Part shown: positions 30,140 through 52,864 of the stretch, one piece after another
How the letters are laid out: each line of letters starts with the position of its first letter
Position numbering within the stretch: the first letter of the stretch is position 1
Assembly: GCA_018065065.1 (NCBI GenBank)
Contig: JAGHTZ010000027.1
Span: 1-56,322, forward strand
Length of the DNA stretch: 56,322 nucleotides
Reading direction: 5' to 3'
DNA from: Candidatus Equadaptatus faecalis
GTDB taxonomy: Bacteria; Synergistota; Synergistia; Synergistales; Synergistaceae
Notes under the pieces: generated by a model
Databases searched by the model: none
What the model was told of the DNA's origin: nothing
What the model saw: only the letters and a program-made list of their open reading frames with translations
Translations under genes and position numbers: made by a program

Positions 30140-30244
30140 CAAAAGCACCCGCGCAACCGACGGACAAGCGGAGCACCGCAGAGAAGCCCGGGTACTGTTG
30201 AAGCCGACCGTCTGGGCACATTTCTGCACTACAGAAGTGTGCCC
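30140..30244 (+). ncRNA. ZTP (pfl) riboswitch with overlapping terminator
   Basis: The leader has the two conserved halves of the pfl motif: 'CGCAACCGACGGA' (30152-30164) and 'CCGACCGTCTGGGCA' (30204-30218), where GACGG pairs with CCGTC and the CUGGGCA end is the ligand-binding tail. The same GGGCACA is also the left arm of a terminator, GGGCACA...TGTGCCC (30214-30244), followed by TTATTGTTT. When ZMP/ZTP binds, the tail is held in the aptamer and the terminator cannot form, so the operon is switched on when 10-formyl-THF is short. The mechanism is known for the family; ligand identity here is by motif. Confidence 0.85.
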
Positions 30245-42461: not shown

Positions 42462-44138
42462 ATGACCTGGAAATCTGACATTGAAATCGCACAGGAATGT
42501 GTACTCGAACCGATAGGCAAAATAGCCGAAAAAGCGCACGTTGACGAGAAGTACATTGAGCAGTACGGACGCTGGAAAGCGAAAGTTGATCCGGCGCTCA
42601 TCAAGGAAACGGACAGAAAAGACGGAAAACTCATCCTCGTAACGGCAATCACCCCGACACCTGCCGGCGAAGGCAAAACGACCACCACTATCGGACTTGC
42701 CGACGGACTGAAACTCATCGGCAAAGACGTCGTCGTCGCTCTCCGCGAACCCTCGCTCGGACCTGTCTTCGGCGTAAAAGGCGGCGCGGCCGGAGGCGGC
42801 TATGCTCAGGTTGTGCCTATGGAAGACATCAATCTCCACTTCACGGGAGACTTCCACGCAATCGGCGCTGCCAACAACCTGCTCGCCGCAATGCTCGACA
42901 ACCACATTCAGCAGGGCAATGCGCTCGGCATAGACGTCCGCCGCATAACGTGGAAACGCTGCGTTGACATGAACGACAGACAGCTCCGCTTCATCGCCGA
43001 CGGACTCGGCGGCAAAGCAAACGGCACGCCGCGCGAAGACGGCTTTGACATCACAGTCGCAAGCGAAATAATGGCTGTCTTCTGCCTTGCAAGCTCAATC
43101 ACCGACCTCAAGGCACGCCTTGCAAGAATAATCGTCGGCTACAGCTTCGACGGAAAACCGGTAACAGCCGGCGACCTCAAAGCCGTAGGCGCCATGACCG
43201 CCCTGCTTAAAGACGCGCTCAAACCGAACCTCGTACAGACCCTCGAAGGCACGCCCGCATTCGTACACGGCGGACCGTTCGCAAACATCGCGCACGGCTG
43301 CAACTCAGTCATGGCAACGCGCCTCGCTCTTAAAATGGGCGACTACACCGTCACGGAAGCCGGATTTGGCGCAGACCTCGGAGCGGAAAAATTCCTTGAC
43401 ATCAAATGCCGCATGGCGGGACTCACCCCCGACGCGGTCGTCGTCGTCGCCACCGTCCGCGCCCTTAAAATGCACGGCGGACTTGACAAAAAATCGCTCA
43501 ACACGGAAGACCTCGCGGCGCTCGAAAAAGGCATACCCAACCTTCTCCGCCACGTGTCAAACATCAAAAACGTGTATCAGCTTCCCTGCGTCGTCGCGGT
43601 CAACCGCTTCCCGACAGACACCGACGCTGAAATCGACTTCATCATCAAAAAATGCCGCGAACTCGGCGTCAACACCGTTCTCTCAACAGTATGGGCAGAA
43701 GGCGGCAAAGGCGGTGTAGAACTCGCGAAAGAAGTCGTGCGCCTCTGCGAAGAAGAAAAAGGCAATTTCACCTTCTCCTACGAACTTGACGGAAGCATTG
43801 AAGACAAAATCAACGCCGTTGTCACGAAAATCTACGGCGGCAAAGGCATCTCAATCCTTCCGAACGCGAAAAAACAGATACAGGAACTCACAGCCCTCGG
43901 CTATGACAAAATCCCTGTCTGCATAGCGAAAACACAGTACAGCTTCTCCGACGACGCCTCAAAACTCGGCGCGCCCGAAGACTTCACCGTAACGGTCAAA
44001 AACGTAAAAGTCTCCGCCGGAGCCGGCTTCGTCGTCGTCCTCACAGGAGACATAATGACCATGCCCGGACTTCCGAAAGTGCCCGCGGCGGAAAAAATTG
44101 ACGTGGACGAAAACGGACGTATTTCGGGTCTGTTCTAA
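42462..44138 (+). CDS. fhs: Formate--tetrahydrofolate ligase
   Basis: A 558-residue enzyme that joins formate to THF using ATP, giving 10-formyl-THF. The P-loop '[20 protein letters not shown]' (about 61-80) and '[23 protein letters not shown]' type segment are complete. It starts directly at the end of purL with GGAGGAGA in front, making one-carbon donor supply part of the purine operon. It ends the operon. A diverged copy of its last 79 bases follows at 44200-44278. Confidence 0.97.
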
Positions 44139-47543: not shown

Positions 47544-48908
47544 TTACAGCATTTTCAGTTCAACGTGAGACCGCAAAATTGCTTTGAAAATAACCTCGTA
47601 CAGCGGTTCATAATTCTGCGTTTTATCCGCCGCGGCAAGCGCCTCAATATACTCGTCTTTATCCTCAGTCCTGATATACAAGGGCGTAATGCTCGACCGT
47701 ACCAGCTGCATATTCATAAAAGCTCTTGCTGTTCTTCCGTTGCCGTCCGCAAAAGGATGAATAACGGTAAGGCGGTGATGTATGCGGCATATTTCCTGTA
47801 TATATTTGCTGAGCGGCTTGCTGAAACGCTGCTCAAAACTTCTTTTCACCTCTGTATCGAGTGCAGCAAGCTCATTCGCTATGTCGTTATGGTCTACTGT
47901 TTCAAATTTTGCTCCAATAACAAGAGTATTATTTTTCCTCGTTGAACCGCCAAACTCAGGATGCGGATAATACGCGAAAAGCTTTTGATTCAGCGACATT
48001 GTCTCAAAAACAGACAGTTTATCTTTATGTTCTTCGGTAAAAATATGTTGGTAAATATCATAATGGCCGGCGGCGGACATATACGCGTCGCTGCCGGTAT
48101 CAGAACAATAACAGCTGTTCTGTTTCTTAAGTCTCAAATCAGTAACTATCTCGCTTATCTGCTCTATATCAACGTCCAGACCTTCAATTCTGCTGTCGTT
48201 ATAAATATAATTATTTTGGAAAACAAACCTTGCGCGGTCATTGCCGTCTGTGGCAAGCTGCTTAAAATAACAGTCAAACAACCCTGCATACAGCTTAGCG
48301 TAAGACAAATGTTTTGCCCTGCGTTTTTTCTCCGGCGCATATTTGGCAATGCTTTTTCTAAGTTCAGAAGGTTCCGTATTTACGCTTATTGCGTGTATTA
48401 CATACGCAATTCTGAACAGGCAGGCTTGAAAACTTACACCAAAATAATCCGCTATTTCAAGAACGTCGTCAAAACTGATATAACCGCCGGCATTTTTGCG
48501 TTTATTAACCTGGTGCTTCAAATCTGCATACGGCATAAGCACAGCCGAAGCAAAGGACTCCGCAAACTTCTCGGTTGCAGACTGAGGAGACATAGGGCAT
48601 ACAACGCTCTTGCCTGTATCTCGAAAATGGTGGCACAATTCATGTACAGCAGTATAGCGCTGGCGCGTTATGGGACGATTGGCGTTAATCCCGACTACAG
48701 GCACATCATCACCGTCAGCAGCCGGTACATACACCCCTTCAAGTTTATGAAAATTTGAAATTGAAAAAATAATTCCCTCGTCCTTAAGCATTTGAAAAGG
48801 ATTAAGAGGGAAAACAATTTTGGAATTGCCAAAATATGCTTTTAAGAACGCCTGCGCCATCTTTTCGGCGCTCTCAAACTTACTCGCCTGCTCTCTGAAA
48901 CTATTCAT
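47544..48908 (-). CDS. ImmA/IrrE metallopeptidase - Fic domain fusion protein
   Basis: A 454-residue two-domain protein. Residues about 20-160 form an ImmA/IrrE (COG2856) zinc peptidase with the active site 'AVHELCHHF' (HExxH, about 88) and a downstream Glu in 'EKFAESFASAVLMP'. Residues about 210-450 hold a Fic domain: 'NDSRIEGLDVD' resembles the inhibitory helix with its Glu, and the catalytic loop 'IHPFADGNGRTARAFMNMQL' (HPFxxGNGRxxR, about 389) is complete. ImmA proteases cleave phage-type repressors; Fic proteins transfer AMP to protein side chains. The start overlaps the XRE gene by eight bases. This pairing suggests a sensor-effector toxin or an element-control switch. Confidence 0.9.
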   Translation of the reverse strand: MNSFREQASKFESAEKMAQAFLKAYFGNSKIVFPLNPFQMLKDEGIIFSISNFHKLEGVYVPAADGDDVPVVGINANRPITRQRYTAVHELCHHFRDTGKSVVCPMSPQSATEKFAESFASAVLMPYADLKHQVNKRKNAGGYISFDDVLEIADYFGVSFQACLFRIAYVIHAISVNTEPSELRKSIAKYAPEKKRRAKHLSYAKLYAGLFDCYFKQLATDGNDRARFVFQNNYIYNDSRIEGLDVDIEQISEIVTDLRLKKQNSCYCSDTGSDAYMSAAGHYDIYQHIFTEEHKDKLSVFETMSLNQKLFAYYPHPEFGGSTRKNNTLVIGAKFETVDHNDIANELAALDTEVKRSFEQRFSKPLSKYIQEICRIHHRLTVIHPFADGNGRTARAFMNMQLVRSSITPLYIRTEDKDEYIEALAAADKTQNYEPLYEVIFKAILRSHVELKML

Positions 48909-49224
48909 GCGCCGCTTTTGCTTTCATCTGCTCTTTGAAACGTATTAAATTCATAATTTCTGCTTGGTCATTCTCATCAAGCTTTTCAAAACTGCGGGCA
49001 AAAAATGCTACGGACTCGTCTGTTTTCACTCCCGAAAGCAGAAAATCCGACGACACGCCGAACAGCTCGCACAGTTTTGCAAGTTCATCGGCAGACAGCT
49101 TCCGGTTGCCGTTTTCCAGTTGTGAAAACGACGCCCTGTTAATGCCAAGAAAATTTGCGACGTACTCCTGAGACAAATGCAGCTGACTGCGAAATTGTTT
49201 AATTCTCTCGTTAATAGTGCTCAT
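48901..49224 (-). CDS. XRE-family HTH regulator, partner of the ImmA-Fic fusion
   Basis: A 107-residue protein with an HTH_3 domain at residues 5-60 ('FRSQLHLSQEYVANFLGINRASFSQLENGNRKLSADELAKLCELFG') and a helical tail rich in Asp/Glu/Lys. GGAGGAAG precedes the ATG at 49224. It overlaps the fusion gene by eight bases, the ImmR-ImmA arrangement: the protease would cut this repressor and release the promoter. Two operator-like sites cover the promoter upstream, consistent with autoregulation. Confidence 0.88.
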   Translation of the reverse strand: MSTINERIKQFRSQLHLSQEYVANFLGINRASFSQLENGNRKLSADELAKLCELFGVSSDFLLSGVKTDESVAFFARSFEKLDENDQAEIMNLIRFKEQMKAKAAHE

Positions 49225-49318
49225 TTCTCTTCCTCCCAACAAAAAATTGCAGCCTGAACACCTGCGGTAAAGGGTTGTACTGCACAAAGATTTAAGTCTG
49301 TTTTATTAAAGCGGAAAT

Positions 49319-50075: not shown

Positions 50076-50243
50076 TCAGATGTTTTCCGAATTTACGCTG
50101 CCTTTTTCCCGTTCAACGTATTCGGTGATGAGCTGTTTTATGGCGCTTTTTGCGGTCGTGCCTTTGCAGCCTATCACTTTCCTGAATGACCTGTAAAGCC
50201 TTTCGGGAATTTCACTTCCCACATGAATTATTCTTCCTGACAT
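50076..50243 (-). CDS. 55-residue DNA-binding-like (ribbon-helix-helix) protein
   Basis: A very small gene with AGGAGGG before its ATG. The product begins 'MSGRIIHVGSEIPERLYR' and continues with 'SFRKVIGCKGTTAKSAIKQL' and 'ITEYVEREKG': one short strand, then two basic helices with an 'x-TTAKSAIKQLI' turn, which fits a ribbon-helix-helix fold of Arc/ParG type. It is the last gene of the sigma-factor transcription direction. A role in control or partition of the element is inferred from the fold only. Confidence 0.65.
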   Translation of the reverse strand: MSGRIIHVGSEIPERLYRSFRKVIGCKGTTAKSAIKQLITEYVEREKGSVNSENI

Positions 50244-50346: not shown

Positions 50347-50982
50347 TTACATTCTTTCTTCCGCCATACGGAGCAGCCAGCCTTTAAGCGGGTTCAGTTT
50401 TTCCTGTATTCTTTCAAGACGCCTGACTACCGTCATGTGCGACACTTGCAGCCCCGCGGCAATCTGCCGTCTGCTTTTTCCCTCGTAGAGCGCGAAGACT
50501 ATGCTCATTTCTTCCGGCGTGAGCAGAAGCTCAACTTTTTCAAACATATCCGTTTCGCGCTCCGCCCATTCCACGCCGCGGTCTTCGCCGGCAAGCAGTT
50601 CAATTTCTTCCGTTATCGGCACCGATTCGCCGTACAGATTTTTCTTCTGTTTCCGCAGAATTTCGGCGTTGAAATTTATAATGCGTCTCATCCGCCGCTG
50701 CAGCCTGTTAAGGAAATATTTGTCTTTCCGCATTTTCGGCACGATACGGATAAGCGCTATGCGCCCTATCTGCACCAAGTCCTGCGTTTCCGCGCCCTGC
50801 CCCTCGTATTTAAGCGCAAGGCTTTTTATCAGGGGGTCAAATCTTTCAACCGCTTCTTCTGCTTCCTCTGCCGTCATTTCGCAGCCGTCTTCTTCCGGCT
50901 CGTTTTCAGGCGCGTATTCCGCGCTTGCAAAGAGCATTGCTTCGTTTTCTTCCGTTTCAATTTTCGTGTACGCCAATTCCAT
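50347..50982 (-). CDS. Sigma-70-family-like RNA polymerase sigma factor
   Basis: A 211-residue protein with an acidic N-terminal 45 residues, a region-2-like part ('DPLIKSLALKYEGQGAETQDLVQIGRIALIRIV', about 48-80, and 'YFLNRLQRRMRRIINF') and a C-terminal region-4-type HTH ('LTPEEMSIVFALYEGKSRRQIAAGLQVSHMTVVRRLERIQ', about 150-192). Such small sigma factors occur in phages and integrative elements. The neighbouring DUF2922/DUF1659 genes and the twin promoters at 51895-52046 are natural targets. ATG at 50982 has GGGAGGTAAAT in front. Confidence 0.8.
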   Translation of the reverse strand: MELAYTKIETEENEAMLFASAEYAPENEPEEDGCEMTAEEAEEAVERFDPLIKSLALKYEGQGAETQDLVQIGRIALIRIVPKMRKDKYFLNRLQRRMRRIINFNAEILRKQKKNLYGESVPITEEIELLAGEDRGVEWAERETDMFEKVELLLTPEEMSIVFALYEGKSRRQIAAGLQVSHMTVVRRLERIQEKLNPLKGWLLRMAEERM

Positions 50983-51141: not shown

Positions 51142-51372
51142 CTACATTTCAACGTCGGTGGTTACGGTCTCAATGACTTCCGCGCCGTTTGCGGAAGCGA
51201 TGCTTCCGGCTATCGGCTGCTGTGCCACAACTTCGTCCATCGCGGTTTTTACAAGCTGTGCGCCTGAGCCTTCTTTAAGTCCGTCTTTGACGTAGTTCAG
51301 GATTATGTTGTGATCCGTTCCGTCGCCTTTGAGAAATTTCATTTTGAGTTTTCTCGTAGTCGTTATTGCCAT
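51142..51372 (-). CDS. DUF2922 small protein
   Basis: A 76-residue protein typical of DUF2922: 'LKMKFLKGDGTDHNIILNYVKDGL', 'VKTAMDEVVAQQ' and the ending 'GAEVIETVTTDVEM'. The family is widespread in Firmicutes and relatives, usually beside DUF1659 genes; its function is unknown. ATG at 51372 follows AAGGAGGTGAAAAAT, identical to the ribosome site of the DUF1659 gene. A heptad repeat array lies in its leader. Confidence 0.85.
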   Translation of the reverse strand: MAITTTRKLKMKFLKGDGTDHNIILNYVKDGLKEGSGAQLVKTAMDEVVAQQPIAGSIASANGAEVIETVTTDVEM

Positions 51373-51407
51373 ATTTTTCACCTCCTTTGTCTGCTCGTTT
51401 CACTCGC

Positions 51408-51568
51408 GCTGTAAGCTGTAAGCTTTAAGCATTAAGCATTAGAACCTTATTGGCGCTCCGCACCGCTGCACGCTATACGCTATTGGCTATAGGCTTTTAA
51501 AACCTTTAAGGCTTTTTTTAGCTTTTAGCTTAATGCTTACCGCTTGCCGCTTGCAGCTTACAGCTTTC
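51408..51568. repeat. Heptanucleotide repeat array A
   Basis: Between the two DUF genes run 7-base units: on the left (GTAAGCT)(GTAAGCT)(TTAAGCA)(TTAAGCA), in the middle (TATACGC)(TATTGGC)(TATAGGC), and on the right, in inverted sense, (TTAGCTT)(TTAGCTT)(AATGCTT)(ACCGCTT)(GCCGCTT)(GCAGCTT)(ACAGCTT). The two outer arms are complementary and could pair. No frame is kept. Confidence 0.75.
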
Positions 51569-51574
51569 TCCGCG

Positions 51575-51775
51575 CTAATCTTCTATCAGATCCACGCTGT
51601 TGCGTTTGACGGCGCTCGGCGTTGATACAAACAGCGGTTTGAAGCTGCCTGCAACAGTGTTGAGCGTGTTTGCCGGCGCACTCGGCGAAATTTTGCTTAC
51701 AGATACCGTTTTCTTGGCATCGTCCACGGTAAGCGAGAATTTCATTGCCATGCTTTCGTTTTCAAAACTTGCCAT
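51575..51775 (-). CDS. DUF1659-like small protein
   Basis: A 66-residue protein ('AMKFSLTVDDAKKTVSVSKISPSAPANTLNTVAGSF' layout, ending 'VKRNSVDLIED') of the DUF1659 type, which normally stands next to DUF2922, as it does here. Function unknown. It is the first gene behind the leftward promoter at 51897-51925. Ribosome site AAGGAGGTG. Confidence 0.78.
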   Translation of the reverse strand: MASFENESMAMKFSLTVDDAKKTVSVSKISPSAPANTLNTVAGSFKPLFVSTPSAVKRNSVDLIED

Positions 51776-51810
51776 ATTTTTCACCTCCTTTGTTTTGGCG
51801 CTGAGGCGCC

Positions 51811-51876
51811 GCTGTACGCTATTGGCTATACGCTATAGGCTTTGGCTTAATGCTTTTAGCTTTTGCTTATAGCTTT
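51811..51876. repeat. Heptanucleotide repeat array B
   Basis: Nine or so 7-base units: (ACGCTAT)(TGGCTAT)(ACGCTAT)(AGGCTTT)(GGCTTAA)(TGCTTTT)(AGCTTTT)(GCTTATA)(GCTTTCT). The block is a reshuffled version of the middle and right part of array A and occupies the leader of the DUF1659 gene. Confidence 0.75.
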
Positions 51877-51894
51877 CTCTCATCCGCCTCTATG

Positions 51895-51925
51895 CTATAA
51901 TGTTCACCGGATAAAGATTTTGTAA
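51895..51925 (-). promoter_or_regulatory. Leftward twin promoter (TTACAA-17-CATTAT)
   Basis: On the minus strand TTACAA (51920-51925) and CATTAT (51897-51902) are 17 bases apart, inside a longer element TGTTACAA...GTGAACATTATAG that has an inverted twin 110 bases to the right. It would drive DUF1659, DUF2922 and the sigma gene. Confidence 0.65.
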
Positions 51926-52015
51926 CACCCCTGTAAATTGAAAAAGAAATAAAAAAAATTATTTTTTTTCAAAAACTTTTCCGAAATTTTTTATTTTTTT
52001 CTCTTTTCCCCCATG

Positions 52016-52046
52016 TTACAAATTTCTTATTTAGTGAACATTATAG
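52016..52046 (+). promoter_or_regulatory. Rightward twin promoter (TTACAA-17-CATTAT)
   Basis: TTACAA (52016-52021), 17 bases, CATTAT (52039-52044); identical boxes and spacing to the leftward copy. The stretch between both (51926-52015) is almost pure A/T. It drives the RNA candidate and the 124-residue gene. Confidence 0.65.
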
Positions 52047-52050
52047 TGCA

Positions 52051-52380
52051 GAGGGTGACGGGGAACAGAATTGTTGTTTTTAATCCTGTTCCGGCTCGGT
52101 GGTTTTGAAACGTTGGGAGGGCTTAGCAGAGCCTGCTGCTCCTTTCGTTTCCTGCTAAAGCTTCCGTGTTTTGTCACTTTTACGCATTACGTGATGCGGT
52201 TTCCGGTTCTGATAAGCCCGCTGCTTCATAGGCTATGTCAAGGAAAACCTCGGTAACGGCTGCCGGAGGCAGCCGGTTTCCGGCGCAGATACGCGGTCCT
52301 CTTTCAGTATCCGGATTCTGTAATACGCCTGCGCAGGCGGACGAATAACAGTTTTTGTGTGTTATCCGTTTGTGTTTTCA
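52051..52380 (+). ncRNA. Possible structured RNA between twin promoter and the 124-residue gene
   Basis: About 330 bases without a gene hold several stable stems: GGAACAG/CTGTTCC (52062-52092), GCTTAGCAG/CTGCTAAAGC (about 52120-52163), CGCAT/ATGCG near 52183-52198, CGGCTGCC/GGCAGCCG (52257-52275), the palindrome CGCCTGCGCAGGCG (52327-52340), and a last stem CGGA..ATAACA/TGTTAT.CCG (52339-52371) followed by TTTGTGTTTT. It starts at a promoter and ends in a terminator-like hairpin. I do not recognise the RNA; it may only be a long leader. Confidence 0.4.
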
Positions 52381-52416
52381 TACCCAAAATTCAAAATAGA
52401 CATAAGGAGTTTTATT

Positions 52417-52791
52417 ATGCTCAGACATAAGGATAAAGAACTTAGAGCTAAGAAGAAGATACAGACTAAGAAGCGTTCAGGTACAAGAATTAAGAAGAAT
52501 ATAAAGCATAAGCGTCTTATAGAGTTTCAGGTAAAGGGCAGTGAGCCTTTGAAATTCTGCAGGACAATACAGCTTACAGAGGAGGTTCGGCAGCTTTTCG
52601 GGCAGTGCGTTAATGCCATAGTGCCAAAGGAAGCAAAGCAGGACGGCAGGGTGCCGTGGCTCTCTCTTTTCAGGCATACGAAGGGCAGGTTTCTTGTTTT
52701 GCGCTGCGATGTTGCAGAGCGCGAGGACACTCTGAAGCTTGACGAAAACGGCAATGCTTATTTAGAACCTGACGTTAATTTTACTAAATAG
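52417..52791 (+). CDS. Hypothetical basic 124-residue protein
   Basis: AAGGAG stands eight bases before the ATG at 52417. The first 35 residues are almost all Lys/Arg ('KDKELRAKKKIQTKKRSGTR'), the rest looks like a small folded domain ('IQLTEEVRQLFGQCVNAIV', 'WLSLFRHTKGRFLVLRCDV'). I do not recognise it; nucleic-acid binding is likely from the charge. It is the only rightward gene in the region apart from the repressor. Terminator follows directly. Confidence 0.7.
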   Translation: MLRHKDKELRAKKKIQTKKRSGTRIKKNIKHKRLIEFQVKGSEPLKFCRTIQLTEEVRQLFGQCVNAIVPKEAKQDGRVPWLSLFRHTKGRFLVLRCDVAEREDTLKLDENGNAYLEPDVNFTK

Positions 52792-52816
52792 AGGACGGAA
52801 ATTTTGTTCCGCCCTC
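52791..52816 (+). terminator. Terminator of the 124-residue gene
   Basis: GAGGACGGAA / TTCCGCCCTC with a six-base loop, followed by seven T residues; it begins at the stop codon. Confidence 0.9.
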
Positions 52817-52864
52817 TTTTTTTATGCAACACCGCCGCAAGATGTTTTTGCCCTTCAAGTTTTT

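Follow-up and report, generated by a model that had tools for sequence, protein, structure and literature searches.

A family of long structured RNAs that is, judged from sequence, previously undescribed occupies at least 24 loci of a 1.6-Mb Synergistaceae MAG (G000) and is associated there with several cassettes that encode sigma factors; the family itself, along with its link to these cassettes, constitutes the surprising part of the analysis. The window, i.e., the whole stretch of DNA analysed, is 56 kb long and lies on contig C27 of this genome. We demonstrate the promoter geometry, the covariation and copy number of the RNA, and the cassette-specific matching of the promoters. We propose that a leftward operon (DUF1659, DUF2922, a sigma-70-family factor, and a small ORF) and a rightward unit (the RNA and a basic protein) start from inverted copies of one unusual promoter, p1, both of which would be read by the cassette's own sigma factor, resulting in positive autoregulation. 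The same factor would also read the p1 that precedes roughly a dozen other RNA copies elsewhere on the chromosome. Sister cassettes, with diverged sigma factors, their own matched promoter pair, and their own RNA copies, would then form several parallel sigma–promoter–RNA circuits, in which the RNAs are presumed to be transcribed and are proposed to act in trans.

The divergent promoter pair and its two units

The features of the locus are as follows.

50076–50243, minus strand: small ORF of 55 aa after the sigma gene; a 55-aa ORF stands at the equivalent place in the C58 cassette
50347–50982, minus strand: sigma-70 family factor with region 2 and an HTH in the region 4 place (TIGR02937, NCBIfam sigma70-ECF, 56.6 bits, cut-off 42.9; PF04542, 35.8 bits, cut-off 24)
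51142–51381, minus strand: DUF2922 protein (PF11148, 48 bits, cut-off 25.5)
51575–51775, minus strand: DUF1659-like protein, first leftward gene (Pfam PF07872, E = 0.0013, 19 bits, under the cut-off of 24.1); likely start ATG at 51775 after AGGAGG
51887–51954, minus strand: leftward promoter arm, p1 type, towards DUF1659-DUF2922-sigma (exact p1 site 51895–51927)
51955–51986, no strand: A/T-rich core separating the arms
51987–52054, plus strand: rightward promoter arm, p1 type, also an exact p1 site
52050–52392, plus strand: structured RNA copy with a 5' pseudoknot domain and a 3' core with a covarying long helix (hairpin 52182–52197; covariance model match 52176–52300, 118.8 bits, this copy being among the 11 sequences used to build the model, R1)
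52417–52791, plus strand: basic ORF of 124 aa after the RNA
52796–52820, plus strand: terminator-like hairpin and T run that probably close the rightward unit, such hits being no commoner in the region than in shuffles

The boxes TTACAA and CATTAT, spaced by 17 nt, occur with zero mismatches at 52016–52044 (+) and 51897–51925 (−) and nowhere else in the 56 kb, even if one mismatch is tolerated (0.28 expected); two matches were reached in 4 of 100 shuffles. They are embedded in an inverted repeat (71% over 68 nt) whose ungapped score of 28 was equalled in none of 1000 shuffles (mean 9.8, maximum 16). The first-pass annotation, which described near-identical back-to-back promoters around an almost pure A/T core, is thus borne out on both points. 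The boxes TGTTACAA and GTGAACATTATAG are the same in both arms at 21 of 21 bases, versus 27 of 47 (57%) at the remaining arm positions (Fisher P = 1.4e-4, an optimistic value since the boxes were picked for matching). Since the boxes are identical and the rest of the arms has drifted, they look selected and not merely duplicated. Neither promoter reaches 9/12 in a sigma-70 consensus scan, in agreement with the earlier description of boxes that are poor for sigma-70 yet identical to one another. The −10 register of p1 is uncertain: 5 of the 13 p1 sites of G000 have CATTAC as the second box, which would cost the usually best-conserved last T, and TAYAGT (52042–52047) is therefore at least as likely a core as CATTAT. 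At four loci (L013, L015, L018, and L019, on C17, C60, C18, and C39), a second block starting TGTTACAAATTYCTTATTTAGTG is located about 120 nt upstream of p1 and is perhaps a tandem promoter.

The sigma-like gene that had been placed at the end of the leftward unit encodes a protein of 211 aa that passes the curated sigma-70 family cut-offs of both TIGR02937 and PF04542. When TIGR02937 was applied to four sigma genes of the genus, those of C27 and C46 scored above the cut-off, that of C58 one bit below, and that of C155 in the congener G001 five bits below. Nothing on the function of DUF1659 or DUF2922 was found in the literature; if the proposed reading is true, these widespread, uncharacterised genes gain a first context as sigma factor companions. 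Degenerate repeats resembling AAGCTTAATGC lie between the cassette genes (51400–51570 and 51810–51880), and low-complexity repeats of this type come after many RNA copies elsewhere in G000.

The 55-aa ORF, which matched no family in Pfam, PHROG, or NCBIfam, bears on an improbable alternative, in which a DNA-binding protein encoded by the cassette, for instance this one, would co-regulate both directions with the conserved blocks as its operators. An imperfect dyad in ATGTTAC...GTGAACAT and the presence of the ORF after sigma in both C27 and C58 are consistent with such operators; however, the blocks hold promoter-like spacing and stop just before a purine-rich start region in every promoter type, and the small ORF resembles no recognised DNA-binding family.

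On the rightward side, the basic protein belongs to a small family with a lysine/arginine-rich N-terminus that follows RNA copies (homologs lie just downstream of those at C28, C58, and C47) and was seen in this genus only, in the searches made. Nothing convincing was found for it in Pfam, PHROG, or NCBIfam, and IMG/VR contained zero relatives. Its AlphaFold model has a mean pLDDT of 58, too low for a structure search. Pentatricopeptide chain matches were set aside, as they span 15 residues and none of the stretches passes by itself.

A dispersed, modular, pseudoknotted RNA

The rightward promoter leads first to a structured RNA of about 340 nt and not directly to a protein gene. A 60-nt probe from this promoter has 15 matches in G000, and with a 551-nt query the similarity reaches about 340 nt downstream of it. 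The p1 promoter is thus not private to the window locus, because the right-hand promoter belongs to a many-copy RNA around the chromosome. The central hairpin of the RNA, ACGCATTACGTNNTGC, occurs 24 times in G000, an assembly in which 16S was not found, and 7 times in G001. It does not occur in any of 59 further genomes from the family and order, and the reversed-pattern control likewise gave 0. The covariance model found nothing beyond the genus among 151 genomes, under stricter filters that weak relatives could escape, and the RNA pattern has no match in IMG/VR, nor in phages or plasmids. At the RNA loci, no Rfam family scored above its gathering threshold, and permissive thresholds gave weak matches only, all sub-gathering.

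Alignment of divergent copies delineates the 3' core as a 10-bp helix, a conserved CUUCGGUAA bulge, and an inner hairpin, with 39 doubly changed cells versus 13.7 in shuffled alignments. In the 5' domain, a GAAAC...GUUUC helix surrounds a hairpin, the loop of which pairs with sequence 3' of the helix to form a pseudoknot; here, 34 doubly changed cells were counted versus 11.4 shuffled. The pseudoknot helix is 98.7% paired, and 4 of its 6 base pairs show compensatory changes. For both domains, none of 500 shuffles equalled the real alignment in pairing, double changes, or covariation score; slid controls were all far lower. Compensatory base changes above controls qualify the RNA as a structured non-coding RNA, and a protein-coding reading is rejected because the variation in the helices is compensatory.

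The copies mix different promoters, 5' modules, and 3' modules. Where the gene 3' of the RNA is readable, it is either convergent (C38, C60, and C1) or the basic 124-aa ORF; a leader role is ruled out at the three convergent loci. The RNA most likely acts in trans, since the copies with a readable downstream side mostly lack a same-direction gene.

Comparison of the two species points to the exchange of modules. Two pairs of orthologous loci agree at 96.5% upstream and 56% downstream (C119/C18) and at 91% and 60% (C96/C87), values to be read with the caveat that contigs end inside the RNA repeat and that mis-joins near contig ends are possible. In both, the promoter is kept and the RNA body differs, with the switch at the transcription start; at C149/C54 and C61/C28, the promoter type differs as well as the RNA body. 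Because the similarity of the flanks extends to the transcription start and the bodies differ, the RNA loci are old, and their contents seem to have been exchanged.

These breakpoints at the transcription start, where the RNA bodies of the two species diverge, might also be expected if the inverted repeat were a recombination or inversion site, i.e., an invertible promoter, instead of a regulatory pair, and inverted arms do surround a short core in C27, C28, C42, C46, C33, and C72. Such a site is nevertheless highly improbable, given that the window arms are only 71% alike, that no invertase was seen beside the pairs, and that the core has the same orientation in C28, C42, and C46.

Sister cassettes and their promoter types

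The three DUF2922 genes of G000, at C27 (the window), C46, and C58, share one layout, in which the sigma, DUF2922, and DUF1659 genes lie behind one promoter and the RNA behind the other, the two promoters pointing away from each other. In G001, contig C117 carries DUF1659-DUF2922 and, immediately short of where the contig stops, an inverted promoter pair, together with a short or broken sigma-like ORF; it is counted as the fourth cassette on the promoter pair and the DUF genes, an intact sigma and the RNA not being seen there. A further locus of G001 (C155) has the cassette genes, without the inverted pair, beside an integrase and an endolysin, showing that such cassettes can be situated in prophage-like islands.

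The sigma-ward and RNA-ward promoters score 28, 20, 12, and 41 within the four cassettes and at most 10 between cassettes, and of the 24 possible pairings of the four pairs compared, the true one scores best; the best-segment identities are 48/68, 32/44, 19/26, and 48/55. The sigma factors of different cassettes are 19–26% identical, and the C58 factor is 86% identical to its G001 ortholog. Upstream of the DUF2922 or sigma genes of other genera, such an inverted promoter pair was looked for and not found. Palindromes beside near-identical sigma copies in G015, which belongs to another genus, look like repeats of another kind and were discarded. These four sigma genes (L207–L210) lie in 90–97% identical stretches of one 3.6-Mb genome, with palindromic repeats adjacent and DUF1659/DUF2922 not found nearby.

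Cassette-specific matched pairs combined with different sigma factors are the trace expected of cassette-specific autoregulated sigma factors; dedicated, self-regulating factors thus appear to be the best explanation, one that we hold to be probable with some reserve. The first-pass annotation had proposed a dedicated, autoregulating sigma and had named the absence of the exact boxes from other DUF1659/DUF2922 loci as grounds for refutation, and at those loci the exact boxes are indeed absent. The proposal is partly supported: the three other DUF1659/DUF2922 cassettes have matched inverted pairs with boxes that differ per cassette, two of them with a different full-length sigma. Its simple form also has against it that the DUF cassettes of other genera showed no inverted pair of this kind, and that p1 is present in G001, where a close ortholog of the window sigma is lacking.

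Genome-wide, G000 contains 13 exact p1 sites, of which 12 are RNA-ward and 1 is sigma-ward, without any near-misses. The 11 sites outside the window all point into RNA-family transcripts; at C33, the site precedes the RNA hairpin by about 500 nt and a p3 promoter intervenes, and at C18, the contig stops within the RNA. The 6 p2 sites of G000 all fall in three inverted pairs (C28, C42, and C46), the first two without a sigma visible before the contig end; G001 has 0 p2 sites and also lacks a close C46-type sigma. For p5, 3 RNA-ward sites and 1 sigma-ward site were found in G000 and 2 RNA-ward sites in G001, the genome that encodes the close ortholog of the C58 sigma. Each of the three types examined thus occurs almost only before RNA copies and its own sigma operon. 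In G001 (an assembly 93% complete, in 170 contigs), p1 also fronts RNA copies, and the best match to the window sigma is 38% identical and stands behind a different promoter.

This last observation fits a reading that is possible, though unlikely, in which both promoters are ordinary housekeeping (sigma-A) promoters that arose by local inverted duplication and by the spread of the RNA repeat with its promoter. The p1 block is near-identical over its full length in most copies, as duplication predicts, and recent duplication does explain much of the identity of the p1 copies. Additionally, TATAGT is a 5/6 match to TATAAT, and the −10-like cores of p2, p3, and p5 are A/T-rich too. Ordinary promoters would, however, hardly be expected to fail the sigma-70 scan at both window sites, to keep their boxes unchanged while spacer and flanks drifted, or to recur as matched pairs in four cassettes, each pair with its own sequence. 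Counting against dedicated sigma factors, the p3 and p4 types have no assigned sigma.

Beyond the individual cassettes, we tentatively suggest, as a possibility somewhat short of even, that the genus holds several orthogonal sigma–RNA circuits, each with its own sigma, its own inverted promoter type, and a separate set of dispersed copies from one modular pseudoknotted RNA family, the bodies of which are swapped between loci at the transcription start. If so, this would be a regulatory or selfish system of a kind not described before, with at least 24 loci of a 1.6-Mb genome given over to a single undescribed folded RNA of 340 nt that is linked to several private sigma factors. Such a system would also offer natural matched sigma/promoter sets for studying sigma specificity and as orthogonal expression tools, in addition to a large RNA family with a testable function.

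Relation to known systems

The closest characterised parallel is SigO-RsoA of Bacillus subtilis, a non-classical sigma-70-like system that initiates its own operon, yvrI-yvrHa, along with oxdC-yvrL and yvrJ (PMC8103513). The window sigma would likewise serve its own operon and other units. However, SigO-RsoA consists of two separate proteins, with protein genes as reported targets, whereas the window sigma is one 211-aa protein with both sigma regions, and its main targets would be structured RNA copies.

Among the ECF (Group IV) sigma factors whose targets can be predicted, about 55% are considered to be autoregulated (PMC8103513). The window sigma resembles autoregulated ECF factors in being small, with region 2 and region 4, and in that p1 precedes both its own operon and RNA copies, with matched pairs in four cassettes. 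In contrast to the AAC −35 and CGT −10 motif of autoregulated ECF factors, the window boxes are TTACAA and CATTAT, and the proposed targets here are RNA copies. No anti-sigma was recognised; the operon partners are DUF1659, DUF2922, and the 55-aa ORF.

Trans-acting RNA genes under an alternative sigma, sometimes multicopy, are exemplified by Qrr (sigma-54) and by RybB and MicA (sigma-E). These RNAs are about 70–120 nt long, have few copies, and are part of host regulons, in contrast to the RNA of this genus, which is about 340 nt long, pseudoknotted, and modular, with at least 24 copies and several parallel sigma cassettes. The large bacterial non-coding RNAs OLE, ROOL, GOLLD, and HEARO have extensive conserved structure without a conserved ORF. 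The RNA described here is also long, structured, and without a conserved ORF; it differs from them in lacking an Rfam match and in being confined to one genus among the 151 genomes.

Two further observations concern the rest of the window. A ZTP riboswitch lies at 30143–30224 (+; 53 bits), with a formate–tetrahydrofolate ligase-like ORF further on (42462–44138). Additionally, a protein that fuses an IrrE-like peptidase domain with a Fic domain is encoded at 47544–48908 (−), directly after an HTH regulator gene (48901–49287).
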